NCBI GenBank assembly: GCA_018267285.1
Contig: JAFDYU010000011.1
Span: 17,558 to 81,557 of the forward strand
Direction: 5' to 3'
DNA: 64,000 nucleotides
Source of the DNA: Bacteroidota bacterium
GTDB lineage: Bacteria; Bacteroidota; Bacteroidia; Cytophagales; Cyclobacteriaceae
Shown here: piece after piece, positions 14,443 through 40,078 of the stretch
Layout: each line of letters begins with the position of its first letter
Position numbering within the stretch: the stretch's first letter is position 1
Notes under the pieces: generated by a model
Told to the model about the DNA's origin: nothing
The model's database searches: none
Seen by the model: the letters and a program-made list of their open reading frames with translations, nothing else
Position numbers and translations under genes: made by a program

Positions 14443-16737
14443 TTACTTCAACACAAACTCAGCCTTATTTACATCCTGCGAATTAGGCCCAACAAAAACT
14501 TCAAACGTTCCGGGCTCGGCAACAAAATTCAATTCTGTGTTGTAAAATGACAGATCGGTAACCGAAAGCTTAAAATCTACCACCCTCGTTTCGCCCGCCT
14601 TTATTCTGATTTTTCTAAAAGCCTTGAGCTCTTTCACCGGGCACGTGATGGAAGCAACTACATCGCGGATATACAACTGCACAACTTCATCACCATCGCG
14701 CTGACTTTCGTTGGTAACTTCAACAGAAACATTCAGCGAATCAGTAAATGAAATTTCTTTTTTATCTAGTTGCAGGTTGTTATAGGTAAACTTCGAATAG
14801 CTCAATCCAAACCCAAACGGGTAAACGGGATCGTTGGAAACATCGAGGTAATTAGAACGGAATTTGGTAAACCACTTTCCTTCGGGCAACGGACGCCCTG
14901 TGTTTTTGTGCGCGTAATAAATAGGCACTTGCCCTACATTTTGAGGGAATGTGGTGGTTAGTTTTCCCGATGGGTTCACATCGCCAAACAACACATCGGC
15001 AATGGCATCGCCTGCTTCGCTGCCTCCAAACCACACATTTAAAATAGCAGGCACGTTTTCGTTTTCCCATCTCAAAGCCAACGGCCGACCGGTAAACAAC
15101 ACCATCACCACAGGTTTGCCTGTTTTCAAGAGCGCTTTCAATAAATCTTTTTGAGTTTGTGGAATTTCAATATTCGATCGGCTTGAAGATTCGCCACTCA
15201 TTTCTGCCGACTCGCCCACGGCCGCAATAATTACGTCTGCACCACGCGCGATTTTCAAAGCCTCCTCCCGAATTGCTTCGGCAGATCTTTTATCGCGGTG
15301 AAGGGTTTTTCCAAACATGGTTGCACGTTCTTCAAAGGCTTCGTCTTCGTCTAAGTTCGATCCTTTGGCGTACACAATCTGGGCTTTATCGGCCACTGCA
15401 TGTTGCAAACCTTTCAACAACGAAATAGATTCTGAAAACCGGGCACCCACGCTCCACGTGCCGGTCATGTTTAGAGTAGCATCGGCAAGCGGACCAATCA
15501 CAGCGATCGTGCCTTTTTTCTTTATGGGCAATAAATCATTTGTATTTTTTAGTAAAACAAAACTTTGTGCCGCAATGGCTCTTGCTTCGCTCCGGTTGGC
15601 ATCGGAGAAAATTTCTTTTGCACGCGTCCCGTCACAATATCGGTACGGGTCATCAAATAATCCCAATAGAAATTTTGCCTTTAAAATTCGCCTGCACGCC
15701 TGGTCAATTTGTTCAACGGATATTTTTTTCTCGTCTACCGATTTTTTAAGTGTGGTAAGCATCCCCTCGCCCACCATATCCATATCTACGCCAGCATCAA
15801 GTGCTTTGGCCGTTACGGTTTGCAGATCGCCTATGCCGTGGTCAACCATTTCGTTGATGCCCGTGTAATCGGTAAGCACCAGCCCATTAAAGCCCCATTG
15901 TTTGCGCAGCACATCCGAGATCAACCATTTGTTGGCCGTTGCGGGAATACCGTTGATGTCGTTGAACGATACCATCACGCTGCCTGCGCCTGCATCAACG
16001 GCTGCTTTGTACGGTGGAAAATACTCGTTGTACATTTTCACTCGGCTCATGTCAACGGTATTGTAATCGCGCCCGCCCTCGGCTGCACCATAAAGCGCAA
16101 AATGTTTTACACCGGCCATGATGGTGTTGTTGGCCGAGAGGTCGTTGCCCTGATAACCCCGCACCATTGCAGCGGCAATCTGGGAGCCGAGATACGGGTC
16201 TTCACCGCTTCCTTCGGAAACCCTGCCCCAGCGGGCATCGCGGCAAATATCTACCATGGGCGAGTACGTCCAGTTGATGCCATCGGCACTGGCTTCCTCT
16301 GCTCCGATCCGGGCGGTTCGTTCAATCAATTTCATATCCCAACTGCAACTTAAGCCCAGCGGAATCGGGAAGATGGTTTCGTAACCGTGAATAACATCCA
16401 TGCCAAAAAGCAATGGTATTTTCAGTCTGCTTTTTTCAATGGCAATTTTTTGCATCTCTTTAATTCTCTTCAACGGTTTGATGTTGAAGACGGCTCCTAC
16501 CTGCCCGGCTTCAATTTTTTTTCCGATGTTGGAATTCTCAGCCTGCCCGGTAACAAAGTCTCCGGCAGAAGGCAAATTGAGTTGTCCGATTTTCTCTTCT
16601 ATGGTCATGAGGCTCAGCAGCGAGTCTACACGCGAATCGATATCAGATTTTTTTGCTCCTCGGTCTGAGCAAGAGGTGAGAATAAAAAAAGAAATCCATG
16701 TTATGCCAAGGATTATTTTTTTACCACAGCGGAGCAC
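14443..16737 (-). CDS. GH3 beta-glucosidase, lipoprotein
   Basis: A glycoside hydrolase family 3 enzyme with the (beta/alpha)8 domain, the alpha/beta sandwich and a C-terminal fibronectin-III-like domain. The nucleophile Asp lies in GLVLTDYTG (D290 from the GTG start used here), and KHFALYGAAEGGRD is the conserved substrate-binding block. GH3 enzymes release glucose from the non-reducing end of beta-glucans, and next to GH144 genes a beta-1,2-oligoglucan is a reasonable substrate. The lipobox FFILTSC marks an exported lipoprotein. The 5' end is odd: an upstream ATG at 16815 reads through a palindromic repeat and would give an overlong signal. A GTG at 16737 gives a normal-length signal but also lies in the repeat. 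The true start is uncertain. Confidence 0.9.
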   Translation of the reverse strand: MLRCGKKIILGITWISFFILTSCSDRGAKKSDIDSRVDSLLSLMTIEEKIGQLNLPSAGDFVTGQAENSNIGKKIEAGQVGAVFNIKPLKRIKEMQKIAIEKSRLKIPLLFGMDVIHGYETIFPIPLGLSCSWDMKLIERTARIGAEEASADGINWTYSPMVDICRDARWGRVSEGSGEDPYLGSQIAAAMVRGYQGNDLSANNTIMAGVKHFALYGAAEGGRDYNTVDMSRVKMYNEYFPPYKAAVDAGAGSVMVSFNDINGIPATANKWLISDVLRKQWGFNGLVLTDYTGINEMVDHGIGDLQTVTAKALDAGVDMDMVGEGMLTTLKKSVDEKKISVEQIDQACRRILKAKFLLGLFDDPYRYCDGTRAKEIFSDANRSEARAIAAQSFVLLKNTNDLLPIKKKGTIAVIGPLADATLNMTGTWSVGARFSESISLLKGLQHAVADKAQIVYAKGSNLDEDEAFEERATMFGKTLHRDKRSAEAIREEALKIARGADVIIAAVGESAEMSGESSSRSNIEIPQTQKDLLKALLKTGKPVVMVLFTGRPLALRWENENVPAILNVWFGGSEAGDAIADVLFGDVNPSGKLTTTFPQNVGQVPIYYAHKNTGRPLPEGKWFTKFRSNYLDVSNDPVYPFGFGLSYSKFTYNNLQLDKKEISFTDSLNVSVEVTNESQRDGDEVVQLYIRDVVASITCPVKELKAFRKIRIKAGETRVVDFKLSVTDLSFYNTELNFVAEPGTFEVFVGPNSQDVNKAEFVLK

Positions 16738-16803
16738 AGTGCTTACAGAGAGTAAACAAACCCTAAATCTCTCCAATCCTGTGCGCACGCTGTGGTAAAA
16801 AAA
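16716..16803. repeat. Small inverted-repeat element at the GH3 gene start
   Basis: The left arm is seven T's, ACCACAGCG, two bases, then GCACAG (16716-16739). The right arm is CTGTGC, three bases, CGCTGTGGT, then A's (16779-16803). The arms are complementary apart from the two- and three-base interruptions, and enclose about 40 bases. It resembles the CCACAG-type intergenic repeats common in Bacteroidota genomes. The right-to-left reading of the GH3 gene begins inside it. Confidence 0.75.
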
Positions 16804-16878
16804 ATTAAAAGTCATTGTTGTTGTTAATTTTAATGTTACTGATTTTTTAAAACCCCAGTTTTAATCTGTGTAATCCGG

Positions 16879-16952: not shown

Positions 16953-18941
16953 TCAGTTAAATCCTAATTTTGTTTTTGCGGCCTGTACTTCAGGCGCAGA
17001 CATAAATAAATTCCAAAGCAACTGAGTTCTGTAGTTTTCGATCATCACCACAATCGGCCCCTGATCTATGGCCAAATAAGAAGTGGCCGTCCACCCTTGT
17101 GTGATATTAATCGCATCGTAAAATCCGTACTGCCCCCACATGCGGTCACCAAGTGTATAGTAAAAATATTTGATTGCATTCATCGACTCGGTGGGTGTGT
17201 ACGGCATCGAAGAAATGGCAGCCGTTGGTGATATCGTTCCATTGTCGTTGGTGGGCGATTGGGCATCGTAACCCGAAGGATTATCGCTTGCCGTAAGCCC
17301 CCAACAACTGTTGCTGTAGCCAACATATTTTTTTGGATTTGCAGCGCAGTAATCGTGATTGATGAGCGATTGGTTTACATTCTGCGTCCAAAAATTTACG
17401 TTGAGGTACGGATCGGTTACGTGTGGATCAAAACCAAGAAAAGAATACTGCGTAAAAAACAATGGCCCGCCATAGTCATCGCCCAGCGGCAACACGTGGC
17501 CATAAAAAGTTTTTCCGTTTTTGATATTTCCGTTATCGGCCCAGCCTTGTTGATAAACCTCGAGGGGAATGGAATGAGTTGATGAGCCTGCGGCAAGAAT
17601 ATAAGTGATGAGTGTTTCATTGTAACCGCGGATGGGCATGTTCATAACCCAATCTTTGTCGGGCGACCAATGCCAATACAACACATTTTGACTGTTTTGC
17701 CGAAACCAATCCCACTCTACGGCATTGTATAAATTAGTAATCCGATTGATCAGATTATTTCCGGTTGTATCTGTTGAAGTTAAATATTGCCGAACCGACA
17801 GCAGCCCTTGAATCAAGTACGAAGTTTCTACAAGATCGGCTCCATCATCGTTGGTGCTAAAGGGTATCACCTTGCCGGTGGTGCCGTTGATCCAGTGCGG
17901 CCATGCGCCATGAAAGCGGCCGGCTGTTTCGAGAAAAGAAATTATTTTTTGAAAACGAGCGAGGCCATCGGCACGTGAAAGGTATCCGCGCTGAATGCCC
18001 ACAATCAATGCCATCAGGCCAAAGCCGCTGCCTCCCGTAGTAACCAAATCTCCTGAAGTATCGCGCTCGCGTGCCATGCCGCTGTTGGGTTGTGCGAAGT
18101 CGTAGAAATAATTGAATGTCTTTTGTTGAACTAAGTCCAGCAGTGCCGAATCGGTCAGTGCTGGAAATTTCGATATGGTATCGGCTCTGGTATAAAAGAC
18201 TTTTGCATAACCGTTAAACACTTCTTCATCGGCCCCTTGTAATTCGGGAAGCGCACCAATCGAAAATTTAACAAGGCCTTTAAGTTTTGTCGAAACCGAT
18301 AACGTGACAATTTTATTATCGTCACTAATATTTAATTGCAATGCAACTGTATTTGATCCAACTAAAAAAAATTGTGAAGCCAACGAGGCCTGTGTATTTA
18401 AGGCGTTTGAAAATGTGAATTCAAACGTAGGGTTTAAGGAGATGTTTGTGATTTGATTTTGATGTGTTACATCTACTTGATCAATTTTAAAAGAGGTCAA
18501 CAGCAAAGTAGCCGGAACTGTGGTGAAGGAAATTACTACTCCTGGAAAATTTTCATTGCTTTTGCCCTTTAATGTACTACCGATAGAAAGTTGATATTCT
18601 TTATTGTTTTGAAGTGAAGCAGTTGGACTCAGTGAGACAGTTTTGAAATTATTAAAAAAACTAATTTTAAAGGATACGCTACTTTTATCTTGTGATAGGC
18701 CAATTGCCGAAGCAGTGACTGAAGTATCCAGTGGTGCAGAAAAATCTAGCACAATCGACTGATCGGTTGGCACTTTTAAAGTAGCTTCTGTAAGATTTAA
18801 TATCTGTGTCCCTACACTCACTTGAAATAATTGTAATCTATTTGATGATGGTTGAGGGTCGTTTTTTTTAGCGCATGTACTTAACAATAAAAAACAAATA
18901 ATACCTATCGATATCGGGCTTGCTTTTCTGTAAAAATTCAT
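16953..18941 (-). CDS. GH144-type (PF10091) glucanase with two Ig-like domains, lipoprotein
   Basis: A 662-residue surface lipoprotein. The lipobox LLLSTC places the lipidated Cys at 23. Two Big_5-like Ig domains (about 35-145 and 150-250) are followed by an all-alpha 'glycoamylase' domain (about 260-660). Family blocks seen are TGGSGFGLMALIVGIQRGY, GWADNGNIKNGKTF, SCWGLTASD, NDNGTISPTA and LAIDQGPIVVMIEN. Characterised GH144 members are endo-beta-1,2-glucanases, so cleavage of beta-1,2-glucan is the leading hypothesis; the fold alone does not prove linkage. It is the second-to-last gene of PUL 1. A hairpin sits just before its start. A second, shorter paralogue lies at 30543-31901. Confidence 0.82.
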   Translation of the reverse strand: MNFYRKASPISIGIICFLLLSTCAKKNDPQPSSNRLQLFQVSVGTQILNLTEATLKVPTDQSIVLDFSAPLDTSVTASAIGLSQDKSSVSFKISFFNNFKTVSLSPTASLQNNKEYQLSIGSTLKGKSNENFPGVVISFTTVPATLLLTSFKIDQVDVTHQNQITNISLNPTFEFTFSNALNTQASLASQFFLVGSNTVALQLNISDDNKIVTLSVSTKLKGLVKFSIGALPELQGADEEVFNGYAKVFYTRADTISKFPALTDSALLDLVQQKTFNYFYDFAQPNSGMARERDTSGDLVTTGGSGFGLMALIVGIQRGYLSRADGLARFQKIISFLETAGRFHGAWPHWINGTTGKVIPFSTNDDGADLVETSYLIQGLLSVRQYLTSTDTTGNNLINRITNLYNAVEWDWFRQNSQNVLYWHWSPDKDWVMNMPIRGYNETLITYILAAGSSTHSIPLEVYQQGWADNGNIKNGKTFYGHVLPLGDDYGGPLFFTQYSFLGFDPHVTDPYLNVNFWTQNVNQSLINHDYCAANPKKYVGYSNSCWGLTASDNPSGYDAQSPTNDNGTISPTAAISSMPYTPTESMNAIKYFYYTLGDRMWGQYGFYDAINITQGWTATSYLAIDQGPIVVMIENYRTQLLWNLFMSAPEVQAAKTKLGFN

Positions 18942-19012: not shown

Positions 19013-20293
19013 TTATTGGTTTTCAGAATTATACATCAAAGTCACTTCATCTTGTGATAATGCTTTGTGGAAGATGCGAACATCATCCAGCAAGCCTTTG
19101 AAGTGATTGGATGTTACATCTGAATAAGTAGCCCAGGGGAAGGTAACACCATCGCCCGTAGCTCGGTCGCAATAAAAACCAAAGGCAAGTTTAGATGAAG
19201 CACTAACAGCCGTTGTGTTTAGCGTGAGCCCGGTAACAGTTGTTTTATCATCTCCAGCTGGCCAGTTATTGAAGTTTTGAGTCTTCATCAGGGTGCCGTT
19301 CATATAAATTGAACCAACTTTTGTTGAACTATTGTAGGTACAAATGATATTAACCCATTTGTTATTTATCACGGCAGGAAGCCCACCGGATGCAGAAAGG
19401 TCTTTGGAGTACGTCCAACCTTGCCAGCCAAGATTTCCTGTACAATCCATCCACAAGTCTTCGCCTCCAGAATTTGCCGATGCGCTTGATCCAAACTTGT
19501 ATTGTGCCGCCATTTTACCATCTTTTAGCATGTTGCTAAATTCCCATTCAAACCCATCAAAACCGCCAAGCCCCATTACAAAATGACCTATTGTATCGCT
19601 GGCAGATGTTATATTGTAAGAAAGCTTTGCCCAAAAACTTAAGGTAAAATCATTTGTATTTATTAATGACGAACCATTGGGGACTTCAACAATTGTTGTA
19701 GTTCCATTGAACGAAGCTGCTTGGCCTGCGGATGTGTTACGGCCGGCCGCATACGTTAAATCAACCACATCGGATGCGCCCGGGTTGTAGTTTGTTCCAG
19801 AGCCAGCGTCATCAATAGTACTGCTTTCAAAACCCCAGTGTGCAATTTGTCCATCGGGAACAAAAAAACCGGCTGTGGTAAACGTGCGCGAAACTGCTGT
19901 TAAAAATTTTCCACCGGAAGATTTAAGCGTTGCTGCCAAATTTAAATCAAATAAGGCACCTGAGTTTAGGTCTGCATTTGGTGTGATTGTAACAGTTGAG
20001 CCGGAAACTTGAATGGTACTTGCAACGGCAGCCTGATCGTAATCGCGAACCAATGTTATAGCACTCGTTGCAGATGTCTCATCGACAGACGTGCTAAACG
20101 TAGCAATAATTGAAGCAACTACGGGCACACCGGTTGCGCTGGTTGCCCCGTTAAGATCGATTGTGCCTACTTTTAAACTTACTAACGTAAGAGCCGGAGG
20201 CGTATCACTTTTACTGCAACTTTGCACTAAAACAATAGCGGCAACCGCACAGATCGTCACCACTACGCTCATCATCCATTTTATTTTTTTCAT
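19013..20293 (-). CDS. LamG-domain surface lipoprotein (probable glycan-binding protein)
   Basis: A 426-residue lipoprotein (lipobox VLVQSC) with an N-terminal Big_5-like Ig domain like those of the neighbouring GH144 protein. A laminin-G/concanavalin-like jellyroll follows, starting about residue 150 (IAHWGFESSTIDDAGSG). The jellyroll runs through FTLSFWAKL to FKGLLDDVRIFHKALSQDEV, the usual LamG ending. No catalytic residues are evident. Its place directly after susD is where PULs normally encode SusE/F-like surface glycan-binding proteins, and that is the most likely role. It is 52 bases downstream of susD. Confidence 0.82.
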   Translation of the reverse strand: MKKIKWMMSVVVTICAVAAIVLVQSCSKSDTPPALTLVSLKVGTIDLNGATSATGVPVVASIIATFSTSVDETSATSAITLVRDYDQAAVASTIQVSGSTVTITPNADLNSGALFDLNLAATLKSSGGKFLTAVSRTFTTAGFFVPDGQIAHWGFESSTIDDAGSGTNYNPGASDVVDLTYAAGRNTSAGQAASFNGTTTIVEVPNGSSLINTNDFTLSFWAKLSYNITSASDTIGHFVMGLGGFDGFEWEFSNMLKDGKMAAQYKFGSSASANSGGEDLWMDCTGNLGWQGWTYSKDLSASGGLPAVINNKWVNIICTYNSSTKVGSIYMNGTLMKTQNFNNWPAGDDKTTVTGLTLNTTAVSASSKLAFGFYCDRATGDGVTFPWATYSDVTSNHFKGLLDDVRIFHKALSQDEVTLMYNSENQ

Positions 20294-20345: not shown

Positions 20346-21830
20346 TCACCATCCGGGGTTTTGTATCAAACTACCCTTACTAATGTCGATCTGAGTTTGA
20401 GGTATGGGAAGCAGTTCGTGCTTGCCCGGTACAAAGCCAAGAGGACCTAAAATCGTTGCGGCATTTCCGGTTCGCACCAAATCCCAAAAACGATGCCCCT
20501 CCAAGGCAAGTTCGTGTCTTCTCTCATTAAGTATCGCTGCACGAAGTGTATTCATATCGGTAGAGGTTACATCGGGTAAAATTGAATTGCTCCCTCCTCT
20601 CGCTCGTGCTCTGACTTGGTTGAGGTAAGTAAGTGCTTGTGATGCCTGCCCGGATTCATTTAAGGATTCTGCCGCAATTAGCAACACGTCTGCATATCGA
20701 ATCAATCTTTTATGATATCCCCATTCGGTAGTTGTTGAAATACCCGGTACCCATATTTTTTGACTGTAGCATTCTATCTCAATCAAGTTATTATTGCCGT
20801 CATAAATTTGATCCGGGGTTGTGTTATCTCCCAACGTAGTAACACCATCTAAAACTTCCCCCAAAAAAATTATGGTTGCATCCATTCTGGGATCGTTGGG
20901 CTCAAAGGAGTCTCTCAGGTCAATAGTCGGCCTGTTGAAACCCCATCCCCGATTAGGTGATCCTCGAATACCTTGTGTATTGGCATACTGACTGCCACCG
21001 GCATTTGTATCCTCCACCGGCAACGCGCCAATTTCAAAAATAGACTCCGGGCCATAATACCCATTTTGTCCATTCGCATCATTAAAGTCCGGCTCGAGAG
21101 AATATTGACCTGAATTAATCACTTCTAAAGCGTAACTGCTTGCGTTAGCGTAATCGTGTTTAAATAAATACACCTTGGCGAGCAGAGCCTTGGCTGCTCC
21201 TTTCGTAGCACGACCGTAATCAGTCTGTGAATACGAACTTTTTTCAGGTAGGCCTTGAATTGCAGTTGTTAAATCCGAGATAATTAATGAATAAATATCA
21301 TCAGCAGTAGATTGTTTCAGATCTAAAGGTGCTGGCTCCGCTGTAACCATAGGTACATTGCCCCAGGCACGAACTAAATCAAAATAAAATAAAGCTCTTA
21401 AAAAAGAAGCCTCTGCCAGGTATTGTGCCTTGAGATTGGCATCCATCGAAATTTTAGGAACGTAGTTAATCACAACATTGGTTGCGCGGACAGATTGATA
21501 CAGTGAACTCCACCAACGATCAAGCCCATCTTGCGTAGTATTCATGGTAAAATTATCGTATGGGCCAACAGTGGGTAACTGATCAGCCGGATTGCTTCCT
21601 TTCCTTGCATCATCGGACATAATGTCAAGCAAGGGGTACCCACCTGAGTTGTAGTACCAATTACGCATGGTGGCATAGGCAGCGTTGGTTACCAGTAGGG
21701 CATCGTTGGCAGTGGTTGGGAACGATGCCTGTGTTAAACTACCCTGGGGGTTTTTATCTAAAAAACTCTGGCACCCACTCAGTATGATTATGGTTATTAG
21801 AAGTACTGATTTTTTAATATCAACTTTCAT
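20346..21830 (-). CDS. susD: SusD/RagB family surface glycan-binding lipoprotein (PUL 1)
   Basis: A 494-residue SusD-like lipoprotein. It has a lipobox (IILSGCQSFLDKNPQG), the N-terminal TPR-like helical framework, FLRALFYFDLVRAWGNVP, and the C-terminal RHELALEGHRFWDLVRTG block typical of RagB/SusD. It would cap the SusC barrel and hand oligosaccharides to it. It starts ten bases after the susC stop, as in nearly all SusCD pairs. Confidence 0.95.
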   Translation of the reverse strand: MKVDIKKSVLLITIIILSGCQSFLDKNPQGSLTQASFPTTANDALLVTNAAYATMRNWYYNSGGYPLLDIMSDDARKGSNPADQLPTVGPYDNFTMNTTQDGLDRWWSSLYQSVRATNVVINYVPKISMDANLKAQYLAEASFLRALFYFDLVRAWGNVPMVTAEPAPLDLKQSTADDIYSLIISDLTTAIQGLPEKSSYSQTDYGRATKGAAKALLAKVYLFKHDYANASSYALEVINSGQYSLEPDFNDANGQNGYYGPESIFEIGALPVEDTNAGGSQYANTQGIRGSPNRGWGFNRPTIDLRDSFEPNDPRMDATIIFLGEVLDGVTTLGDNTTPDQIYDGNNNLIEIECYSQKIWVPGISTTTEWGYHKRLIRYADVLLIAAESLNESGQASQALTYLNQVRARARGGSNSILPDVTSTDMNTLRAAILNERRHELALEGHRFWDLVRTGNAATILGPLGFVPGKHELLPIPQTQIDISKGSLIQNPGW

Positions 21831-21840
21831 ATATAGTTTT

Positions 21841-24800
21841 TTAAAAAGTGATATTTAGGCCTGTTGAATATATTTTCTGCAACGGATAAGTTCCTCCGTC
21901 AATATTATTGGATAACACATCGCTGCTTCCAAAGTCGGGAGAGTATCCAGTAAATTTCGAAATCGTAAAAAGGTTAGTACCCCGCACATAAAGCTTTACT
22001 TGTTTCAAATGGATTCGATCGGTAACTGTTTTAGGTAGCGAGTAAGCTAAGGTTATACTCCTTAGCCTCATGTATGACGCGCTTTGAATAAATCGGTCGG
22101 AAACAGAAAAGTTATACCCTCCGAATGACGGTCGGGGTTCTGTGTTTGATGTGCCCTCTCCATGCCAATAATTGATAACGTGTTTTTCGAAATTATAGGG
22201 ATCAGGCCGCACTACTTCTTTGGCATTGAATATCACATTACCTCGCTGCCCTTGAAAATCAACTTGTAAATCAAAATTTTTATATCCTAACGAAAAATTA
22301 AATCCGTAGACGAGTGTTGGAATGGGTGACCCCATAGCTACACGGTCGTTTGCATCAATTTTTCCATCTTTGTTTGCATCTACAAAACGTAAATCACCTA
22401 CACCTGCGTTGGAGTCGTGCGGGTACGAAGCGAGTTCGGCAGCATTTTGAAAAATACCATTGGTCTTATACCCATAAAATTCACCAATGGGCATTCCCTT
22501 TCTACTTAACGTTACAGGTCGTCCGTCATTAATATATCCTCCTACTAAAGTAGAATCAATCCCCTTATTGCCTCCCACGGTAAGCACTTCATTATGAAGT
22601 GTATTTCCAAGAAATGCAACACGATACCTGAGGCCTTGAAAAGTATCTTGCCACGCTACATTAAACTCTAAACCACGATTAAGAATGGAGCCCGCATTGT
22701 AAGTAATTGTTGCCCCACTTCCATTACCGAAATAGCCTGCAGGTCTCAGTCCTACCAAAATATCATTTGTTTGTCGTCTGAAATAATCGAATTCGCCTGT
22801 CAATTTGTTATTGAAGAATCCTATTTCCAACCCGATATCGGTTTGATAAGTCGTTTCCCATTTTAAATTGGGGTTACCACTCACGCCAAATGTTGCGCCC
22901 GTATTAATCGAATTCGATGGTCCGAATACGGGGCTCGTTGATGCATTGGAGGCAACAACCGAATACTGTTGGAGGTAATCAATTTTTTCATTTCCAATAA
23001 CTCCCCAACTTCCTCTGAGTTTGAGATTGCTCAGCGATTTGATGTTTTGCATAAATTGTTCATTGATCACATTCCATCCGATTGCAGCTGAAGGGAAATT
23101 TGAAAACCTGTTGGAGGGTGCAAACTTAGAAGACCCATCTCTTCGAAACGAAATCGTAGCCAAGTAACGATCCTTAAAAGTATAATTAGCCCTAAACAAA
23201 TAAGAAAGCATGGAATAATATCCGCCCGCGTTAACCCCGTTATCCAGATTGCCTAGATTATTAATTGGCGGACTGGTTGTTTGATTATAGAAGTAGCTTG
23301 GGTTGTTCAAATATCTGAGGTCGGGCGAGTTTCGGATCAAGTTGCTCCCTTGAATGTTAATGTATTCATTGGATGTCTGTTGCATCGTGTATCCTCCCAA
23401 TATATTCAAACGATGATCTCCCAACGACTTATTGTATGTGATGGTATTTTCCCATAGCCATGTGGATGCATCTGACGAACCTTTGGATAAATCGCTGAAT
23501 AGATTTTGCTGTTGCGAGGCCGTGCCGTCAGCATAATACACTTTATAGGCCGGGGTAAAATCTGTTGATTTTGTGTACGAGAGGTCAACGCCAAAACTTG
23601 AGTGAAAAATAAAGTCTTTCAGAAACGATACATCTGTAAACACATTGCCCACTAATCGAATGCCTTTATTAAAACTATTGGAGTAGGCTAACGAAGCCAA
23701 CGGGTTTCCAACATTTCGAACGGCTGCAAAGGTGCTGCTGTCCGGATAGTAAGGGAAAGCCGTAGGCTGCGCTCGGTAAGCCTGCGAAACTACATCGGGC
23801 GCATTTTGCTGAGAGAAGGGTGTGAGAGTTACATTGTTTCCTACTTTTATATTCTTTGAAAGATTGTAGGTATTATTAAACTTCAAGGTTAACCGCTGGT
23901 AATTCGATTTAGGAATAATGCCTTCTTGTTTGTAATAACTAACCCCAAAATAGTATTGAGACTTGGTTGAAGAACCTGAAATTGAAATTTGATGAGTCTG
24001 CATCGGAGCTGTCTGAAAAATCAGGCTCTGCCAGTTGGTGTTCGAAACTAAATCAATGTTATTGAATGTGCCCGGTAAAATTTTATTATACACCGTTGCA
24101 AACTCTCGGCCATTCAACATATCAATTTGTTTGTTTACTTGCTGAATGCTCAATTCAGAACTCAATGTAATGGAAGGTTTTTCCTGTCCTGGTTTACCTT
24201 GCTTGGTCGTTACAATAATAACCCCATTCGCACCCCTCGACCCATAAATAGCTGTGGCGGATGCATCTTTTAAAACTTCAATAGACTGGATGTCACCCGG
24301 GTTCAAAAAAGAAATATCATCAAGAATCAATCCGTCAACAACAAAAATCGGTGAAGCATTGTTAAACGTACCTACTCCCCTAACACGTACTATTGGAGTT
24401 GCACCGGGTGCCCCTGATGAATTAAAAACTTGAAGTCCTGCAACTTTACCTTGTAGTGATTGTACTGCACTGAAAGAAGGAATTTTTGTTATGTCTGATT
24501 CTTTAACGCTTGATATTGCACCCGTTAAATCGCTCTTCTTCTGTACACCATAACCAACCACCACCACTTCTTGCAGGCTGGCTGCTTCGGTTTCAAGTGC
24601 TATGGTAAAAGTAGTTTGACCACCAATGGTTATCGTCTGTGTTTTATACCCGACAAACGAAACGAGCAATGCCTGATCGGAAGCCTGAATGGAGAGTTGA
24701 AAGTTCCCTTCGGCATCGGTGGTTGTGCCGCGCGTAGTACCCTGCACCACCACGTTTGCACCGGGCACGGGCAGGTTGTCTTCCTTAGAAGTTACCTTAC

Positions 24801-24882
24801 CTGTTATGGTTCTTTCCTGCGCCATCACACAACCAACACCAAACAATCCTATTAAAAAGAGCAATCGTAGCTGTTTCCTCAT
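21841..24882 (-). CDS. susC: SusC/RagA TonB-dependent outer-membrane transporter (PUL 1)
   Basis: A protein of about 1013 residues that imports oligosaccharides across the outer membrane using TonB energy. A signal peptide (MRKQLRLLFLIGLFGVGCVMAQ) leads to a carboxypeptidase-D-like beta-sandwich domain (TITGKVTSKEDNLPVPGANV). Then come the SusC signature LQEVVVVGYGVQKKSDLTGA, a plug domain with GVIIVTTKQGK, and a long beta-barrel ending in Phe. ATG 24882 is chosen over an in-frame TTG at 24912. It is the first gene of the core PUL block and lies 247 bases downstream of the fused receptor gene. Confidence 0.95.
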   Translation of the reverse strand: MRKQLRLLFLIGLFGVGCVMAQERTITGKVTSKEDNLPVPGANVVVQGTTRGTTTDAEGNFQLSIQASDQALLVSFVGYKTQTITIGGQTTFTIALETEAASLQEVVVVGYGVQKKSDLTGAISSVKESDITKIPSFSAVQSLQGKVAGLQVFNSSGAPGATPIVRVRGVGTFNNASPIFVVDGLILDDISFLNPGDIQSIEVLKDASATAIYGSRGANGVIIVTTKQGKPGQEKPSITLSSELSIQQVNKQIDMLNGREFATVYNKILPGTFNNIDLVSNTNWQSLIFQTAPMQTHQISISGSSTKSQYYFGVSYYKQEGIIPKSNYQRLTLKFNNTYNLSKNIKVGNNVTLTPFSQQNAPDVVSQAYRAQPTAFPYYPDSSTFAAVRNVGNPLASLAYSNSFNKGIRLVGNVFTDVSFLKDFIFHSSFGVDLSYTKSTDFTPAYKVYYADGTASQQQNLFSDLSKGSSDASTWLWENTITYNKSLGDHRLNILGGYTMQQTSNEYINIQGSNLIRNSPDLRYLNNPSYFYNQTTSPPINNLGNLDNGVNAGGYYSMLSYLFRANYTFKDRYLATISFRRDGSSKFAPSNRFSNFPSAAIGWNVINEQFMQNIKSLSNLKLRGSWGVIGNEKIDYLQQYSVVASNASTSPVFGPSNSINTGATFGVSGNPNLKWETTYQTDIGLEIGFFNNKLTGEFDYFRRQTNDILVGLRPAGYFGNGSGATITYNAGSILNRGLEFNVAWQDTFQGLRYRVAFLGNTLHNEVLTVGGNKGIDSTLVGGYINDGRPVTLSRKGMPIGEFYGYKTNGIFQNAAELASYPHDSNAGVGDLRFVDANKDGKIDANDRVAMGSPIPTLVYGFNFSLGYKNFDLQVDFQGQRGNVIFNAKEVVRPDPYNFEKHVINYWHGEGTSNTEPRPSFGGYNFSVSDRFIQSASYMRLRSITLAYSLPKTVTDRIHLKQVKLYVRGTNLFTISKFTGYSPDFGSSDVLSNNIDGGTYPLQKIYSTGLNITF

Positions 24883-25129
24883 AAGCAAATTGGTTTTCAA
24901 TGAGTTAACCAAACAATCGTTGGCAGAAATTGTTTTCGGCCATGATTTATTATGAGAAAGTTATTACCAAGCAAATTCTTTGTAAAATATTTTAAGTTAA
25001 ATCATCCCAAAATAAATGTTTACCGATAGTTACATCTGCTGCCTGATTCACGCAAAAAAAACAATGCTTTCAAACGATTTCAAGGCACTTTTCCAGCTCT
25101 TTACGCATTGATTTTGCGCTTCAAAAACA

Positions 25130-27034
25130 TTAATTTTTAGGATTGCTCCTCACGGTCTTCTTTTTTGCAGTTGTCTTAGGCTTTTCGCGGTCGAGTACTA
25201 TTTCCTCCCACGGGTTTCCGCCCGCATGTGTTTGTTCGATGGAGATCATCCGTTCTTCCACTTTATGCTTGAATGCCCAAACGGTACTCAACCTCAATTG
25301 CAATTTTTCGGCTAATGCCTCGAGGGTGAACGTGTTTTTACCCGACTGCACCAAATACGTAAGATAAAATGCTTTGCCGATCGGGAACTTCACACCGTGA
25401 AATAACGTGTTGGAAGTTATCGACTCGTTGTAGCCGCAGCGCGTACACCTGCGCGAAAATTTCAACGGACCTGGCGAATGCTTTACGTTTCGGCATTTCA
25501 CACATTCAAAACCTTTTTGCTCTTTCAGTTTTTCTAAAAAACGGTAGCACGAAAGGTCATCGGGATAGAGCGTTTTAAACTCATCGTAATCCATCTGTTT
25601 CTCGTGCATTCGCTCTTCCAGCACCTCCTTCACTTTGTTCTTCAGTTTCCAGTTATCCAGATCGAGTATGGAATTGATTTGATTGATCTCTACCGACTGG
25701 CGATTGAGTTTGGCATTGCTTTCGATCAGCTCTTCATTCTTATGGTGCAACTCCTGAGTACGTTCCGCAACTTTCTTTTCCAACTCAAGGTTTACTTTGT
25801 CTTTTAGGCGCATGTTCACTTCATGCTGGTGAATGATTCGTTTCATAGCCCGATCGCGGTTGTCTTTCAATATCCTGATCCGGTCGCCCAACGCCACGGT
25901 TAAAAACAGCATTTCGAAAACAAAACTAAAATGGAGGCTGTAGTGGGTTAGTGTGGTAAACGGAAGAATATTTACATAAACCAGCGTGCGCAAAAAGAAA
26001 CCAAAAAACAGAAGCCCATACGCAATTACAAAAAAACGTGCCGGCCTGTAACCGCTGCGCCATACTTTAATGGCCGTAAAAAAAATTAACGAAAGCGGAA
26101 TAATTTCCAGCGTACGGAAGGTGAGCATCTGCCTCGATACCAGCAAGCTAAATACAAACCAGATGGTGCGCGCCACAATCATGATTTTCAAAGCTCGATC
26201 TAATTGAGGGGCATTGGCCTTGGTACTGAGAAACCTTCGCGTAAAAATCAGCGACCAAACGATGACCAGATAAAGCGAAACGCCCACGGCCCAATCATTA
26301 AGCACAGGATAGGAAGGCCACAAATATTGAAAACCGATACCATCATAACTCATGGCGTATAACGCCACGCTGATGAGATAGCAGATGTAATAGATAAATT
26401 TAATTTCGCGTATGGCGAGAAAGACCAAAAGATTATACACCACAATAATCAAGATCATGCCATAAAACATACCGTAGAGGTAATATTCATTCAGCGCGTA
26501 GTACACGAAGTAGTTGGTAGAACGAAGCGCCAGGCGGATGTCGGCAAATTCGTGCGACCGGATTTTAAAATAATACGTCTCCAACCCTTCGCCATGAAAC
26601 TCAAGCGGCAATTCAAAATTTTTGTGAATAAATAGTCGTGAGCTAAAATCCTGATGGTCGCCTAAAATTATTTCTTTGTAGGAACCATCACCTTGCGGGT
26701 AATAAGCGGTGAGGCTATCGATAGTCTGATCATAAAATTCGAGAAGCCAATATTTTTTAGTGACTGTATTTTTTTGGATTGTCAGTCGCACCCAATACGA
26801 GGCATTCTTTCTAAAATCAGAATTAATGTACGCAGCATGTTGGCGGAAATTGTTTTTATAGTTTGCTGAAGATATTTCTTTAAAAGAGACTTGATTGGCA
26901 GTATCTACCGCATAGTATAAGTCGTGCGCCATGAAGTCGTGATGATCTACTGCATCATCTACTTCAATAACGGATTGTGATTTCAGGTTTTGAAAAGCCA
27001 ACCACAGCACCATTCCCAAAAAACACCTGATCAT
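25130..27034 (-). CDS. 7TMR-DISM receptor fused to IS1595-type zinc-ribbon/HTH DNA-binding domain
   Basis: A 634-residue membrane protein with an unusual architecture. A signal peptide (about 1-20) is followed by a 7TMR-DISM extracellular beta domain (25-165), seven membrane helices (185-385) and a coiled coil (395-475). The C-terminal part matches the N-terminal DNA-binding part of IS1595/ISXO2-family transposases. It has DLSCYRFLEKLKEQKGFE, a zinc ribbon C511xxC514 ... C530xxC533, the SNTLFHGVKFPIGKAF block, and a helix-turn-helix (ALAEKLQLRLSTVWAFKHKV). No DDE catalytic domain follows; instead there is a 35-residue Lys-rich tail. The layout suggests a one-component membrane regulator that senses a periplasmic ligand and binds DNA. 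Its place just upstream of susC suggests it controls PUL 1. DNA binding and target are inferred. Confidence 0.82.
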   Translation of the reverse strand: MIRCFLGMVLWLAFQNLKSQSVIEVDDAVDHHDFMAHDLYYAVDTANQVSFKEISSANYKNNFRQHAAYINSDFRKNASYWVRLTIQKNTVTKKYWLLEFYDQTIDSLTAYYPQGDGSYKEIILGDHQDFSSRLFIHKNFELPLEFHGEGLETYYFKIRSHEFADIRLALRSTNYFVYYALNEYYLYGMFYGMILIIVVYNLLVFLAIREIKFIYYICYLISVALYAMSYDGIGFQYLWPSYPVLNDWAVGVSLYLVIVWSLIFTRRFLSTKANAPQLDRALKIMIVARTIWFVFSLLVSRQMLTFRTLEIIPLSLIFFTAIKVWRSGYRPARFFVIAYGLLFFGFFLRTLVYVNILPFTTLTHYSLHFSFVFEMLFLTVALGDRIRILKDNRDRAMKRIIHQHEVNMRLKDKVNLELEKKVAERTQELHHKNEELIESNAKLNRQSVEINQINSILDLDNWKLKNKVKEVLEERMHEKQMDYDEFKTLYPDDLSCYRFLEKLKEQKGFECVKCRNVKHSPGPLKFSRRCTRCGYNESITSNTLFHGVKFPIGKAFYLTYLVQSGKNTFTLEALAEKLQLRLSTVWAFKHKVEERMISIEQTHAGGNPWEEIVLDREKPKTTAKKKTVRSNPKN

Positions 27035-27093: not shown

Positions 27094-29757
27094 TTAATTT
27101 TTTATCAATTTGATTTTATAACTTTTATTGTTCTGGGAAATTGTCAAAATATAAATACCAACAGAAAGACGGGAGGCATTCCCACTAATTATGCCTTCTT
27201 GATTTTCAAATGAAACAAATATCGAACGACCAAAAGAGTCGATTAGTTCAACATAGTCCACTGGCTGAGATAAATTTGAAATCGAAAAGACTCCTTGGGT
27301 AGGATTGGGGTAGACCATAATATCTTTAGGTAAATCAACATCTGTTATTACCAATGATATCACATTAGAATTTTCAGAAACCCCTGAAGCGTTATAGGCT
27401 CGAACTCGATATTGAAATGGGGCACTTTGTATCCCTATTACACTTTTTACAGTATCACTCAACAAAACCCCATTGTATCCTGACAGGAATGTAACAAAAT
27501 TGTCATTCGAAATATCAAGCTGGTATCCAACTGCGCCTTTTGAACCATTCCAATTAACCTGAAAACTGCTGTCAGTAACTTTAGATGCAGGCAAGGCAAC
27601 AGGAAATGATGGTATAAACACCGAGACTACCTCCAAGGAATTAGAATTTGAACATGCTACATATGCAAAGCCATTTGAAAAAAAAACAGATACTGGTTTA
27701 CTCAATATGGCTCCATCTGTGCCGTTAGTAAGAATAGCAGCATGTTTTGGATTTGATGGGTCTCTTATATCAAATATTTCTAATGCATCTACTCCATTTC
27801 CAAGGGAGGACTTATTAGTAGTAACATAAGCGTAATACCCAGAGACAAAAACAGATCTGGCATTAGACAATACAGCTCCACCAGTTCCTTGAGTAACACT
27901 CCCCACGTGAACAGGAGCGCTTGGCGTACTTACATTTATAATTTCTAAGGTATTGGACTGGCTGCTCACCACATACGCGAATTCCCCAGAAACAAAGACA
28001 GATATAGGATTGCTTAATTTTGCTCCCATTGAGCCATCACTAATTTTACCAATGTGTATTGGAGAATTGGGCACAGAGACATCTACTATTTCGAGAGCAT
28101 TTGAGCTACTCACTAAATATGCATAGTTTCCAGAAACATAAACCGAATTTGGTGAAACCAAGGCTGTCCCATTTACACCATCACCTAAACTTCCTGCGTG
28201 TTTTGGAGATACAGGATTACTCACATCAACAATTTCAAGGGAACTTGAATTGGTGCTGGCGATATAGGCATAGCTACCTTGAACAAAGACAGAGCTTGGA
28301 TATTTAATCAAAGCACCTCCAGTGCCATCAACCAGGCTACCCTTATGTTGTGGATTTCCGGGATCAGACACATCGATGATCTCAAGGGAATTACTGTTTT
28401 GACTGACAACATAAGCATAACCTCCGGAAACAAAGACCGATGACGGTGAATCCAAAAGCGCACCATTTGCCTCATTCAATATTTTTCCTTTATGAACTGG
28501 AGCATTGGGTTGAGTAATATCTATTATTTCAAGAGCAATGGAGCTGGTAACGTATGCATAGTTACCATCCACAAATACACAGTTGGCCTTCTCTAAGCTA
28601 GGTTGATCAGATTTAGTTACGCCATGTAAATTACCTAAATGAGTAGGGTCTGTCGGATCGAAAATATTAATAATTTCTAGTGCGTTAGAAAGCGAACTTG
28701 CTACGTAAGCGTTGCCCTCTGAGACAAAAACAGAACAAGCATAATTCAATAAAGCACCATTTACATTATCTACTATGCTGCCAATATGGATAGGAGACAA
28801 TGGATTGGAAATATCAATTATTTCAAGTGAACTTGAAAATGCGCTAGCCACATAAGCATAACTATCATTCACATAAACAGACATTGGAACATTTAGAATC
28901 GAACCTCCATCGCCATTCGAAACACTAGCTGCATGAGTGGGGACATTTGGATTACTAATATCAATTATCTCCAAGGCATTCTCGTTGTTTGATTTGTATG
29001 AGGAATTGGCAACGTAAGCATAGTTTCCGCTTATAAAAACATCATTTGGAGACGATAATTTTGCTCCACCTTGACCATCTACCAACGTACCCGCAATCGT
29101 TGGGAATAACGGGTTACTGACGTCAATTATTACTAACGCATTTGATGCTGCCGCATAAACATAATTCCCTGAAACAACAATGCTTATAGCATCACTCAAG
29201 TAGCCGTTAGTATCATAAATATTTCCTACATGTGTTGGCTTGGTCGGATCAGATACATCTAATATCTCCAAGGCGCCAATTTCGCTTGCTACATACGCCA
29301 GCGTTCCGTTTACACAAACCGAAGATGCATTGTCAAATACTGCACCACCCATGCCATTCGAAATAGACCCTACGACTACCGGGTTAGTTATATCGCTGAA
29401 ATCAATAATTGAAAAGCCTAAAAGAGTTGCTACATAAATATATGACCCAGCTACAAAAAATGATTTAGGCCCATTAAGAATAAGGTCATTTAGAAGTATT
29501 GAACTTTTCAAAGCAGGGGCAGATGGTGTAGATATGTCAACAATAGATATGACTCCGTTACCACTAACGAAAGCTAAATTACCTGAAACAAAAACAGCTG
29601 TTGGTCGATACAGCAGCGGGGGGCCAATCACACTTCCCTGGTGTGCAGGGTTTAAGATTTGACCTGTTGAAATAAATGAAACAAAGAAAAGGAAGGTTAA
29701 AAATAAAAAACTGAAGTAAACCTTATGCTTGAAGAAATTAATAATTTTTATAAACAT
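27094..29757 (-). CDS. LVIVD-repeat T9SS-secreted protein
   Basis: An 887-residue secreted protein. After a signal sequence it carries about 14 copies of a roughly 45-50-residue LVIVD-type repeat. Each copy runs through SVFVSGNYAYVAS, then LEIIDVSNP, then a glycine-rich GGA segment, and together they probably form one or two beta-propellers. A fibronectin-III-like domain follows (SFQVNWNGSKGAVGYQLDIS), then a T9SS sorting domain (VYPNPTQGVFSISNL). The very regular repeats imply recent internal duplication. The protein should be displayed or released outside the cell. It lies 59 bases upstream of the receptor gene on the same strand. Substrate unknown; carbohydrate or protein binding is possible. 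Confidence 0.85.
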   Translation of the reverse strand: MFIKIINFFKHKVYFSFLFLTFLFFVSFISTGQILNPAHQGSVIGPPLLYRPTAVFVSGNLAFVSGNGVISIVDISTPSAPALKSSILLNDLILNGPKSFFVAGSYIYVATLLGFSIIDFSDITNPVVVGSISNGMGGAVFDNASSVCVNGTLAYVASEIGALEILDVSDPTKPTHVGNIYDTNGYLSDAISIVVSGNYVYAAASNALVIIDVSNPLFPTIAGTLVDGQGGAKLSSPNDVFISGNYAYVANSSYKSNNENALEIIDISNPNVPTHAASVSNGDGGSILNVPMSVYVNDSYAYVASAFSSSLEIIDISNPLSPIHIGSIVDNVNGALLNYACSVFVSEGNAYVASSLSNALEIINIFDPTDPTHLGNLHGVTKSDQPSLEKANCVFVDGNYAYVTSSIALEIIDITQPNAPVHKGKILNEANGALLDSPSSVFVSGGYAYVVSQNSNSLEIIDVSDPGNPQHKGSLVDGTGGALIKYPSSVFVQGSYAYIASTNSSSLEIVDVSNPVSPKHAGSLGDGVNGTALVSPNSVYVSGNYAYLVSSSNALEIVDVSVPNSPIHIGKISDGSMGAKLSNPISVFVSGEFAYVVSSQSNTLEIINVSTPSAPVHVGSVTQGTGGAVLSNARSVFVSGYYAYVTTNKSSLGNGVDALEIFDIRDPSNPKHAAILTNGTDGAILSKPVSVFFSNGFAYVACSNSNSLEVVSVFIPSFPVALPASKVTDSSFQVNWNGSKGAVGYQLDISNDNFVTFLSGYNGVLLSDTVKSVIGIQSAPFQYRVRAYNASGVSENSNVISLVITDVDLPKDIMVYPNPTQGVFSISNLSQPVDYVELIDSFGRSIFVSFENQEGIISGNASRLSVGIYILTISQNNKSYKIKLIKN

Positions 29758-29789
29758 AATAATGTATGTGATATAAGTTCAACCAATAA

Positions 29790-29865
29790 GTGCAACACAA
29801 TTGGTTAAAAAAGGAATATTCCTCTCCCTTTCAATTTGACCAAGTTAATTTAAACTTGTGTTGCA
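29790..29865. repeat. 10-base inverted repeat before the transposase remnant
   Basis: TGCAACACAA (29791-29800) is matched in reverse complement by TTGTGTTGCA (29856-29865), which ends right at the remnant's start codon. This could be a transposon terminal or promoter structure. Confidence 0.45.
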
Positions 29866-30094
29866 ATGACAAAATACAAACAACTCAGCCAATAGCAAAG
29901 GTATGTAATTTTGGCAGCCTTGTAAAAGCAAGAAAGGGAAGACAGAATAGCAGCACTATTGGTGTTGATCGGTCTACCATCTATTGGGAATTAAAACACA
30001 ACACCCAAAACGAGGCAGAGGTACGATGGTATACAGGTCAGAATGGCTCAGAAGAAACCAAACTACGACACCCGGTAAAGCTTGGCGTCCTATA
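29866..30094 (+). pseudogene. Decayed 5' end of an IS30-like transposase
   Basis: Reading from ATG 29866 gives MTKYKQLSQ, a stop (TAG), QRYVILAAL, then another stop (TAA). This is the usual opening of an IS30-family transposase with stop codons in place of sense codons. In a second frame IGVDRSTIYWELKHN continues the helix-turn-helix. In a third frame KRGRGTMVYRSEWLRR continues the next conserved block. So at least two nonsense changes and two frameshifts have accumulated, and everything after about 75 codons is gone. The family call comes from the pattern (Y)KQL...QRY...IGVDRSTIxxELK. Confidence 0.65.
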
Positions 30095-30487: not shown

Positions 30488-30542
30488 AATAAGAATTTTA
30501 TCTTTCTGGAAGGTAATGAAGGAGAAGTAATATGTTTCTAAT

Positions 30543-31901
30543 TTAGTTGTCTAACCACCCGCCTTTGAACCCCGCTTTCTTCAATCCGGAAACGATGTAT
30601 TTATTTTTTTTCAGCAGGTTCCAAATAAATCCGTTCTGATAATTTTCAAGCTGAATAAGAATTGGCCCTTGGTCGATGCCGAGATAATCCTGATCGTACC
30701 AACCCCTGCTTCCATCTTTATTCGCTATCGATAAGTTAAACGCATCTTTAAATCCATATTGTCCATAAATTTTGCTTCCGTATTTTTTTTTCATTGTAAG
30801 AAGTGCATCCATACAAAATTCAGGTGCAAAAGGGATGGATCCGCCTACAGCCGTGGGTGCTATCGTGCCGTCATCGTTTACATTCCATTGGGCTGCCCCG
30901 CGTGCCGAGTAGCCCATAAAAGAAATATTGGGGTTGGCACTGTTTTCGTTGCCTGGGCCATCGCAAGCGGTGAGCCCCCACACGTTGGAATCGTACCCCA
31001 CCCAACCGGCCGGGTTGGTAATGCAATATTGCCTGTTGGCAAGGGTGGCCCGTCTTGAGTTTTCAAAATAATCGATTCCTTTCTGCTTCATGTAGTCATC
31101 TTGAATACCTCTGAAGTCGATAAACAGGTGAGAATACTGATGCCCGAACATCGGCCCGAAATTGATGTGTTCCTGGCCAAAATAGTTTCCCCACTGATAG
31201 GTATCCGTCCAGGCATGCCAACTTTCTGGCGCAATGGGGTGAGTGGTGGAACCGAGTGCCATGATGTATAAAATCATGCCTTCGTTGTAGCCTTTCCAAC
31301 GTGCTTTGATAAATCCATTTTCCGGATGCCAGCCCATCGTCATGGTCTTTTCGTTGTTCATTGCCCAGGCCCAATCTACCGCGAGAAAAAGTGAATCGGC
31401 AAGACTTCTGATTTCTTTCTCTGTATCGTTGTCTCGATCAAAAAAAGATTGGCACGACAGAATTCCGGCCATGAGCAAACCCGTATCAACGGTTGATAAT
31501 TCTACTTTGCGAAAGCGCAAGCCTGTTTTCATATCAATAAAATGATAGAAGAAACCGTTGTAGCCCGATGTGCCCGTAGCCGCATCGCCCTTAGGCGAAT
31601 GTTGAAAAAACCTCAAAGTCTTCCGCACTCGTTCGGCCGCCTGATCGCGCGAAATATAGCCGCGGTTCACCCCTACCAGATAGGCCGAAAGCCCAAACCC
31701 GGTTGCCGCAATGCTCGAAAAACTTTTCGATGGCCAGCGGTCGGGCTGGTTGCCGGTGGTTGAGTCGGCCAGATTCCAAAAAAAACTGAATGTGTCCCTT
31801 GAAAGGGAGTCGAGAAAGAGTTTCTCACTTGATCGATTTTCGTTTTTACAAGAAGAAAAAAATATAAGTACTGCTAAGGCAAATAAAGTTCGCGTCATCA
31901 T
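30543..31901 (-). CDS. GH144-type (PF10091) glucanase, short form, lipoprotein
   Basis: A 452-residue enzyme of the same family as 16953-18941 but without Ig domains. The lipobox (LIFFSSCKNE) is followed directly by the all-alpha catalytic domain. Shared blocks are AATGFGLSAYLVGVNRGY, WKGYNEGMILYIMALGSTTH, NVWGLTACDGPG, NDDGTIAPTA and LGIDQGPILIQLENY. It likely hydrolyses the same glucan, perhaps with a different product size or location. It is the most upstream PUL 1 gene and is cut off from the rest by the transposase/SpaB_C scar. It follows the DUF218 gene by 16 bases. Confidence 0.85.
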   Translation of the reverse strand: MMTRTLFALAVLIFFSSCKNENRSSEKLFLDSLSRDTFSFFWNLADSTTGNQPDRWPSKSFSSIAATGFGLSAYLVGVNRGYISRDQAAERVRKTLRFFQHSPKGDAATGTSGYNGFFYHFIDMKTGLRFRKVELSTVDTGLLMAGILSCQSFFDRDNDTEKEIRSLADSLFLAVDWAWAMNNEKTMTMGWHPENGFIKARWKGYNEGMILYIMALGSTTHPIAPESWHAWTDTYQWGNYFGQEHINFGPMFGHQYSHLFIDFRGIQDDYMKQKGIDYFENSRRATLANRQYCITNPAGWVGYDSNVWGLTACDGPGNENSANPNISFMGYSARGAAQWNVNDDGTIAPTAVGGSIPFAPEFCMDALLTMKKKYGSKIYGQYGFKDAFNLSIANKDGSRGWYDQDYLGIDQGPILIQLENYQNGFIWNLLKKNKYIVSGLKKAGFKGGWLDN

Positions 31902-38795: not shown

Positions 38796-38823
38796 TTTTT
38801 TCTCTAATTTATTAATGATTTCA

Positions 38824-39912: not shown

Positions 39913-39935
39913 CCTTCCGTTTTTCAAGCAATATG

Positions 39936-39943
39936 CAAATATA
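39936..39943 (-). promoter_or_regulatory. -7 element of the LacI gene promoter
   Basis: TATATTTG on the minus strand matches TAnnTTTG, 24 bases before the LacI ATG. The expected -33 region falls inside the first palindromic operator, which fits autorepression. Confidence 0.5.
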
Positions 39944-39956
39944 ATTGTATTATTTA

Positions 39957-39970
39957 TGTGTACGCACACA
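39957..39970. promoter_or_regulatory. LacI-type operator 1
   Basis: TGTGTACGCACACA is a 14-base palindrome with one imperfect pair and a central CG-containing core, as LacI-family operators usually have. Confidence 0.6.
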
Positions 39971-39977
39971 TTTTTAG

Positions 39978-39991: not shown

Positions 39992-40006
39992 TTTTTTAGT
40001 TTTTTC

Positions 40007-40037: not shown

Positions 40038-40078
40038 CAGAGTAGTAAAAAAACTATTTCTAACCCTAATAAAAATTT

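Follow-up and report, generated by a model that had tools for sequence, protein, structure and literature searches.

A 7TMR-DISM receptor ending in an IS1595 transposase-type zinc ribbon and helix-turn-helix as a probable one-component regulator of the adjacent PUL

A gene in the 64,000-nucleotide stretch of Bacteroidota DNA analysed here (the window) likely encodes a one-component, membrane-anchored regulator of the adjacent PUL, in which a 7TMR-DISM receptor ends in the zinc ribbon and helix-turn-helix (HTH) of an IS1595-type transposase; DNA binding, dimerisation, ligand, and activation are all inferred. A preliminary description had read the gene as a one-component membrane transcription factor, and that reading is supported by the architecture, the genomic linkage, an element in the adjacent gap, and the existence of a second sensor type, with DNA binding remaining an inference. 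We also consider it probable, with slightly less assurance, that the protein represents one more class of PUL regulator, widespread across the order, in which a module captured once from IS1595 spread by duplication, came to sit on at least two unrelated sensors, and was tuned to different glycan operons with a partly related operator (a T-run followed by AAGCG). The order was taken as Cytophagales from the named relatives.

The frame at 25130-27034 is an intact ORF on the minus strand, which the preliminary description had left unspecified, and the plus-strand reading of the same positions contains many stops. Pfam matches to the 7TM domain (7TMR-DISM_7TM, 155.1 bits against a curated cut-off of 29) and to the periplasmic domain (DISMED2, 92.2 bits against 22) both lie far over their cut-offs, confirming the complete 7TMR-DISM receptor proposed earlier. 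No histidine kinase, receiver, or AraC domain was detected in the protein by the Pfam scan. The full AlphaFold2 model, built on 43 sequences (mean pLDDT 82.2, pTM 0.59), places in order a beta domain, the 7TM bundle, a last transmembrane helix reaching residue 472, the zinc ribbon, and the three helices of the HTH, with low confidence at residues 457-479. The coiled coil expected behind the receptor is likewise supported by this prediction, where helix 360-472 is continuous. A separate model of the C-terminal part displayed the same elements (mean pLDDT 79.8). At E<=0.001, Foldseek searches with the full model recovered three chains of human Wntless, the best at E 6.2e-6, and matched the periplasmic domain of RetS (3jyb) at E 1.6e-4. 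Compared with solved structures by Foldseek, the C-terminal model gave no significant match, and a search of solved structures by sequence found no close relative.

Table 1. Features of the receptor gene, the gap before susC, and the adjacent PUL, in window coordinates.
Feature	Position	Strand	Basis
Receptor/regulator gene, 634 aa (7TMR-DISMED2, 7TMR-DISM, coiled coil, zinc ribbon, HTH)	25130..27034	-	ORF, Pfam, AlphaFold2
Periplasmic 7TMR-DISMED2 domain, residues 37-170	26525..26926	-	Pfam E 3.6e-26; Foldseek to RetS
7TM domain (7TMR-DISM_7TM), residues 183-385	25880..26488	-	Pfam E 3e-45; seven long helices in model
Predicted coiled coil, residues 386-472, continuous with last transmembrane helix	25619..25879	-	AlphaFold2 model, helix 360-472
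IS1595-type zinc ribbon, residues 491-538, C511/C514/C530/C533	25421..25564	-	Family profile matches, alignments, hhalign
IS1595-type helix-turn-helix, residues 549-602	25229..25390	-	NF033547 E 1e-5; model helices 552-563, 571-578, 582-601
Candidate operator, 27-base core 25047-25073	25046..25090	-	De novo motif; single site in own genome; family scan
SusC-like TonB-dependent transporter, presumed first gene of regulated operon	21841..24912	-	Pfam
SusD-like protein	20346..21830	-	Pfam E 2.8e-38
Big_5 + Laminin_G_3 protein, probable surface glycan-binding protein	19013..20293	-	Pfam
Glycoamylase PF10091 with Big_5	16953..18941	-	Pfam E 2.6e-74
GH3 glycoside hydrolase	14443..16815	-	Pfam E 2.2e-74
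Second PF10091 enzyme, other side of receptor	30543..31901	-	Pfam E 1.4e-84

The gene had been placed directly upstream of susC, and this holds, with a gap of 217 bp to the called susC start. The called start at 24912 is probably too early, and the true distances to susC could exceed those given by some 30 bp; within 24882-24912 an in-frame ATG, 30 bases past the called TTG, opens the sequence MRKQLRLLF, which resembles the start of a signal peptide. PF10091, the family of two enzymes in the locus, is one which we take to be CAZy GH144, and the combination of GH144 with GH3 serves beta-1,2-glucan degradation. The GH144-linked loci are thus probably devoted to beta-1,2-glucan use. Between the receptor and the second GH144 enzyme lies a gene for an LVIVD-repeat protein with a secretion tail (27094-29757); the receptor has a GH144 gene as its direct neighbour in L052 (there on the opposite strand), L054, and L055. 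The remaining interval, 29758-30542, carries plus-strand ORFs that resemble, by eye, fragments of an IS30-type transposase and the C-terminal end of a lantibiotic dehydratase, and these are probably insertion debris.

Linkage to susC is shared by most of the relatives. The 183 module-bearing genes were reduced by C-terminal sequence to 166 non-redundant receptor or module genes, and in 110 of these the next gene downstream, on the same strand, is susC. Among the others, susC lies within three genes in 4, is divergent in 4, and is found otherwise within four genes in 6, while 12 have SusD, GH144, or GH3 within four genes and 30 have no such label. Split by set, the immediate arrangement occurs in 39/60 genes from family f1, 56/63 from the best named matches, and 14/42 from the order-wide search, plus the window; the 63-gene set comprises the 80 best named matches minus duplicates and is biased to close orthologues. 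As a control, 1,245 other genes from these loci were counted likewise, and 16 had susC immediately downstream; since the loci had been selected around receptors, this figure is too low an estimate of the base rate. Genes were called by a simple longest-ORF method ignoring neighbour ORFs under 150 aa, and the SusC, SusD, GH144, and GH3 labels derive from profiles built from the loci of this analysis, of which the GH144 profile also responds to Big_5 in the LamG protein. Counting only GH144-labelled genes of 440 aa or more, one stands within four genes of 81 of the 110 receptors with susC immediately downstream, and of 37/60 receptors in family f1 vs 1/42 order-wide. The conserved PUL context of the receptor gene argues against IS mobility.

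More distant relatives have other glycan enzymes beside them. Pfam was run on 20 chosen neighbours, taken mainly from receptor loci without a close susC. They included enzymes of GH10 (two), GH43, GH67, GH115, GH9, and GH81, together with a legume-type lectin, PCMD, CBM96, and an alginate lyase; further matches were DUF2339, OmpA/PD40, ADP-ribosylglycohydrolase, a TPR-HATPase protein, fumarase, RecJ, patatin, and peptidase M3, and one of the 20 matched no Pfam family. Some of the 30 receptor genes without a PUL label adjoin glycan enzymes. Others of the 30 stand beside DUF2339, fumarase/RecJ, patatin, or peptidase M3, so not every member is PUL-linked.

These unlabelled genes, 30 of the 166 and some with no visible glycan link, leave room for a regulator whose main targets lie elsewhere or which acts globally, the linkage to susC being mostly co-inheritance of a PUL cassette; moreover, the GH144 linkage within the bacterial family may stem from one ancestral locus. 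We regard this as rather unlikely, since L099 and L104, relatives at ~30% identity, are located beside xylan-type enzymes, which ties the receptors to glycans in more than one PUL type. In addition, the 27-base pattern of the candidate operator described below, searched as the window copy with <=3 mismatches, has a single site in its own genome, and that site is in the receptor-susC gap.

A de novo motif search of the gaps between receptor and susC gave a candidate operator. Starting from 110 gaps, we retained 82 (GH144-flagged, 150-500 bp) and then 73 by shared 8-mers. At a width of 16 the likelihood gain was 373.9 vs 106-120 for three shuffles, and at a width of 20 it was 475.3 vs 125-141, also for three shuffles. 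The long form of the motif on the coding strand, read from the sites and the consensus, is about CGTTTGAAATCAATGTTTTTTAAGCGCAAAA. The core scores >15 in 64/82 gaps, its end lying at a median of 133.5 bp before the called susC start; the scoring matrix was trained on 73 of the 82 gaps scanned, and 12/73 training gaps score under 5. Exact matches to the 20-base core numbered 12 in 192 family genomes, compared with 1 match for a reversed control pattern. Judged by position, 8 of the 12 lie beside a receptor and its susC (G093, G132, G084, G183, G137, G024, G127, and G074).

Locus L053 in genome G074 is arranged differently: the element (7313-7332) is positioned between susC (ending at 7272) and a 255-aa ORF (7567-8334), with the receptor beyond at 8945-10897, and it is at a distance of only some 40 bp from the susC start as called. 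We rejected the idea that the element is merely the receptor terminator, as in this one case the 255-aa ORF parts it from the receptor. A plain promoter was also rejected; TAnnTTTG is the promoter consensus, and it occurs downstream of the core in 2/64 gaps against a shuffled mean of 5.1.

Transfer of the operator to other receptor lineages is weak. In held-out lineages, 10/90 adjacent gaps reached a score of 12 vs 4/271 other gaps (p 2.5e-4; shuffled mean 1.9). This p value is not corrected for kinship, three of the ten loci share one sequence, and the adjacent gaps are the longer ones (36.2 kb in total vs 65.8 kb for the other gaps); the loci of set B were left out of this stricter test. A looser count at the same score, 17/74 loci vs 3/280 gaps, flatters the motif because it includes close orthologues cut by contig ends; the two tests also differ slightly in how they count other gaps. 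For the xylan group, a de novo search of the upstream gaps gave no motif gain above the shuffles; with the resulting matrix 7/13 gaps score >20, and 6 of the 7 read AAGCGCAA or AAGTGCAA. In the f71 group the downstream motif, TTTTTTAAGTGA together with its reverse, reached a gain of 79.6 vs 52-68, and seven L090-type loci have a different motif.

The same C-terminal module was found without the 7TM domain in L246, L247, and L248 (1068, 997, and 1011 aa; two genomes). Reg_prop, Y_Y_Y, and Zn_ribbon_IS1595 all exceed their Pfam cut-offs in L246 and L247, in which Pfam detected no histidine kinase, receiver, or AraC domain; the sensor type of L248 was judged without Pfam, from sequence only. Adjacency to PULs is something the window receptor shares with HTCS regulators; Reg_prop/Y_Y_Y, carried by these three proteins, is the HTCS sensor type. 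In contrast to HTCS, the window protein, L246, and L247 are devoid of the histidine kinase, receiver, and AraC domains. L246 is located directly before susC-susD, and no labelled PUL gene was found within four genes of L247 or L248. By eye, a W..(V/I)(I/V)L-like motif follows the HTH (residues 609-614 of the window protein) in 7TM and Reg_prop forms alike.

The assignment of the C-terminal part to an IS1595 zinc ribbon and HTH could not be sustained on the window protein alone but is firm for the family. In the window protein, Zn_ribbon_IS1595 (PF12760) covers residues 491-535 at E 0.26, under its cut-off; the C-terminus by itself matched no Pfam family at E<=0.01; and the NCBIfam IS1595 transposase model NF033547 aligned to 549-602 at E 1e-5, under its whole-protein cut-off. 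In a check against zinc ribbon and HTH profiles, as had been suggested, the single sequence thus stays under the cut-offs, yet the orthologues do match: PF12760 was found in 33/36 and NF033547 in 31/36 aligned C-termini at E<=0.01. A scan of 98 genomes of the bacterial family also recovered receptor-length frames over the curated PF12760 cut-off (best 44.7 bits). With hhalign, the alignment of receptor C-termini matched ten canonical IS1595 transposases over 126 columns, spanning zinc ribbon and HTH (probability 99.6%, E 1e-23). On these comparisons, homology of the module to IS1595 transposases is real at the family level. The four cysteines are exactly where they had been placed (511, 514, 530, and 533) and are invariant in 36/36 and 43/43 alignment rows. 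The reported absence of a DDE domain was also upheld, as neither Pfam nor hhalign revealed one in the window protein, whose chain stops once the HTH is complete; the DDE domain of the transposases starts just past the hhalign-aligned part. The window protein thus differs from IS1595-family transposases in lacking this domain and in being fused to a receptor.

A tree of 93 modules over 121 columns, obtained after removing 3 gappy rows (135 to 132) and 39 similar ones (132 to 93), supports the term domesticated transposase used in the preliminary description. All 71 receptor modules (68 rows with 7TM and 3 with Reg_prop) fall on one side of a branch, with 22 transposase-like or short rows on the other (support 98/88, the bootstrap being unsettled). 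Many inner forks are unresolved, and the chosen outgroup does not fall together on one side of a branch, which leaves the position of the root uncertain. The three Reg_prop rows are placed among the 7TM rows with weak support.

Modules close to those of the receptors were also seen in genome G353, where seven IS1595-like genes (L286-L292) encode 304-332 aa, at least nine such places being listed. The G353 genes are without the first two DDE acidic residues in the hhalign alignment, and no convincing terminal inverted repeats were found around the seven. SusC/SusD occur some genes away in 2/6 of the neighbourhoods (L302-L307). These genes are possibly soluble regulators derived from dead transposases. 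In L044, L049, L124, and L126, short frames of 151-189 aa extend hardly beyond the zinc ribbon and HTH and could be solo regulators or transposase fragments.

DNA binding has not been demonstrated, and with the low single-protein profile scores one may ask whether the zinc ribbon and HTH still bind DNA or now mediate contacts with protein or RNA instead, the receptor signalling through a partner. We find this improbable, given that the zinc ligands do not vary in any alignment row, that the transposase profile still matches 31 of the 36 members, and that a conserved element lies in the adjacent gap.

With a DNA-binding output, a mechanism can be proposed. The periplasmic domain and 7TM bundle would sense a product of glycan breakdown; the two GH144-type enzymes and the GH3 of the locus make a beta-1,2-gluco-oligosaccharide the most likely one. 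The signal would pass through the last transmembrane helix, which is predicted to run on as a dimeric coiled coil, and would then alter the placement or activity of two zinc-ribbon/HTH modules. With the conserved element some 130 bp ahead of susC as their binding site, these modules could switch on susCD and the enzymes. Since the helix is continuous from membrane to module in the model, we infer that ligand may alter the dimeric coiled coil and hence the placement of the DNA-binding heads.

The PUL regulator classes named in the accessible portions of two sources are SusR-like regulators, HTCS, and ECF sigma/anti-sigma systems (PMC3878776, PMC6874557), and for hemicellulase genes the portion available of a third names HTCS, ECF/anti-sigma, and carbon catabolite repression (PMC10766802). 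As far as this material goes, SusR-like regulators resemble the window protein in being single-chain membrane proteins that pair a periplasmic sensor with a DNA-binding domain in the cytoplasm, and they activate neighbouring susCD-type operons (PMC3878776, PMC6874557). The window receptor differs in its 7TMR-DISM sensor and its IS1595 zinc ribbon-HTH output. Could it nevertheless be a member of the SusR-like regulators described in Bacteroides? The partial account at hand gives SusR as membrane-bound, sensing in the periplasm and carrying a cytoplasmic DNA-binding domain not significantly similar to that of any other known regulator (PMC3878776), which would allow for such membership. The C-terminal profile, run over 395 phylum genomes at E<=1e-8, matched receptor frames of 620-718 aa, frames resembling transposases, and short ones. 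There was no match near 540 aa, the length of SusR, although the presence of SusR among these genomes is unestablished. On this length comparison alone we consider membership very unlikely. By analogy with SusR, which activates its operons according to the same partial account (PMC3878776), the window protein would more likely be an activator than a repressor, the sign of regulation being inferred. Membrane one-component PUL regulators are already known in SusR, and what is new here is probably the transposase-derived output, its binding again an inference.

The usual outputs of 7TMR-DISM receptors are kinase or GGDEF domains. The window protein shares DISMED2 and 7TM domains with RetS, SagS, and RgsP and differs from them in having a transposase DNA-binding module as output instead of a kinase or GGDEF domain. 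One case with GGDEF is given in the part of PMC5342196 available. The ChiS-family DNA-binding domain also occurs with 7TMR-DISM in Proteobacteria, where, according to a figure legend, the DNA-binding domain ends the protein (PMC8092284); that domain is a helix-sheet-helix variant fold, and no PUL link was found in the portion of the source available. A census of transmembrane transcription regulators covers proteins with a one-component DNA-binding domain and a transmembrane part (PMC10269533, in part), to which the window protein conforms by homology and model only; zinc, transposase, and 7TM are absent from its main text, the supplements being outside that scope. Our literature search found no paper with Zn_ribbon_IS1595 or PF12760 and no description of a regulator joining 7TMR-DISM to an IS1595 module. 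The earlier statement that no regulator of this type had been described fits this outcome, yet SusR and the ChiS-family fusions to 7TMR-DISM are in print. If our reading is true, it adds a class of PUL regulators in Cytophagales beside SusR, HTCS, and ECF/anti-sigma, and provides a predictable regulator-promoter pair useful to assign glycans to orphan PULs. It would also be a bacterial example of a transposon DNA-binding domain as the output of a membrane receptor, with a candidate site, DNA binding being inferred.

Matches to the C-terminal profile were found in 107/291 genomes of the order at E<=1e-15, and most of the places listed are frames some 590-720 aa long; among the weak matches, a few may be transposases. 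Across the phylum, 50/395 genomes match at E<=1e-8, many via transposase-like frames. A scan of named genomes gave 345 relatives, of which the best 80 were retained; most of their titles read Cyclobacteriaceae, Cytophagales, Flammeovirgaceae, or simply Bacteroidetes, and Chryseolinea, Ohtaekwangia, Fulvivirga, and Roseivirga are represented. The architecture is the same in 42 aligned relatives, picked for full length, at 45-68% identity. The architecture search that had been proposed thus showed the fusion to be recurrent, not a one-off, and PUL-linked in most cases. An accidental fusion, an assembly chimera, or a decaying gene, for which nothing in the window gene speaks and only four listed distant relatives with one in-frame stop each could be cited, can be practically dismissed, and a recent accidental fusion was rejected, given the architecture conserved in these 42 relatives and the receptor-length frames across the order.

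Elsewhere in the window, inspection by eye disclosed a second PUL (36882-44771) with SusC/SusD at 40079-44771, a divergent LacI-like regulator at 38824-40020, and a NagB-like gene; this PUL seems to use another regulator type.
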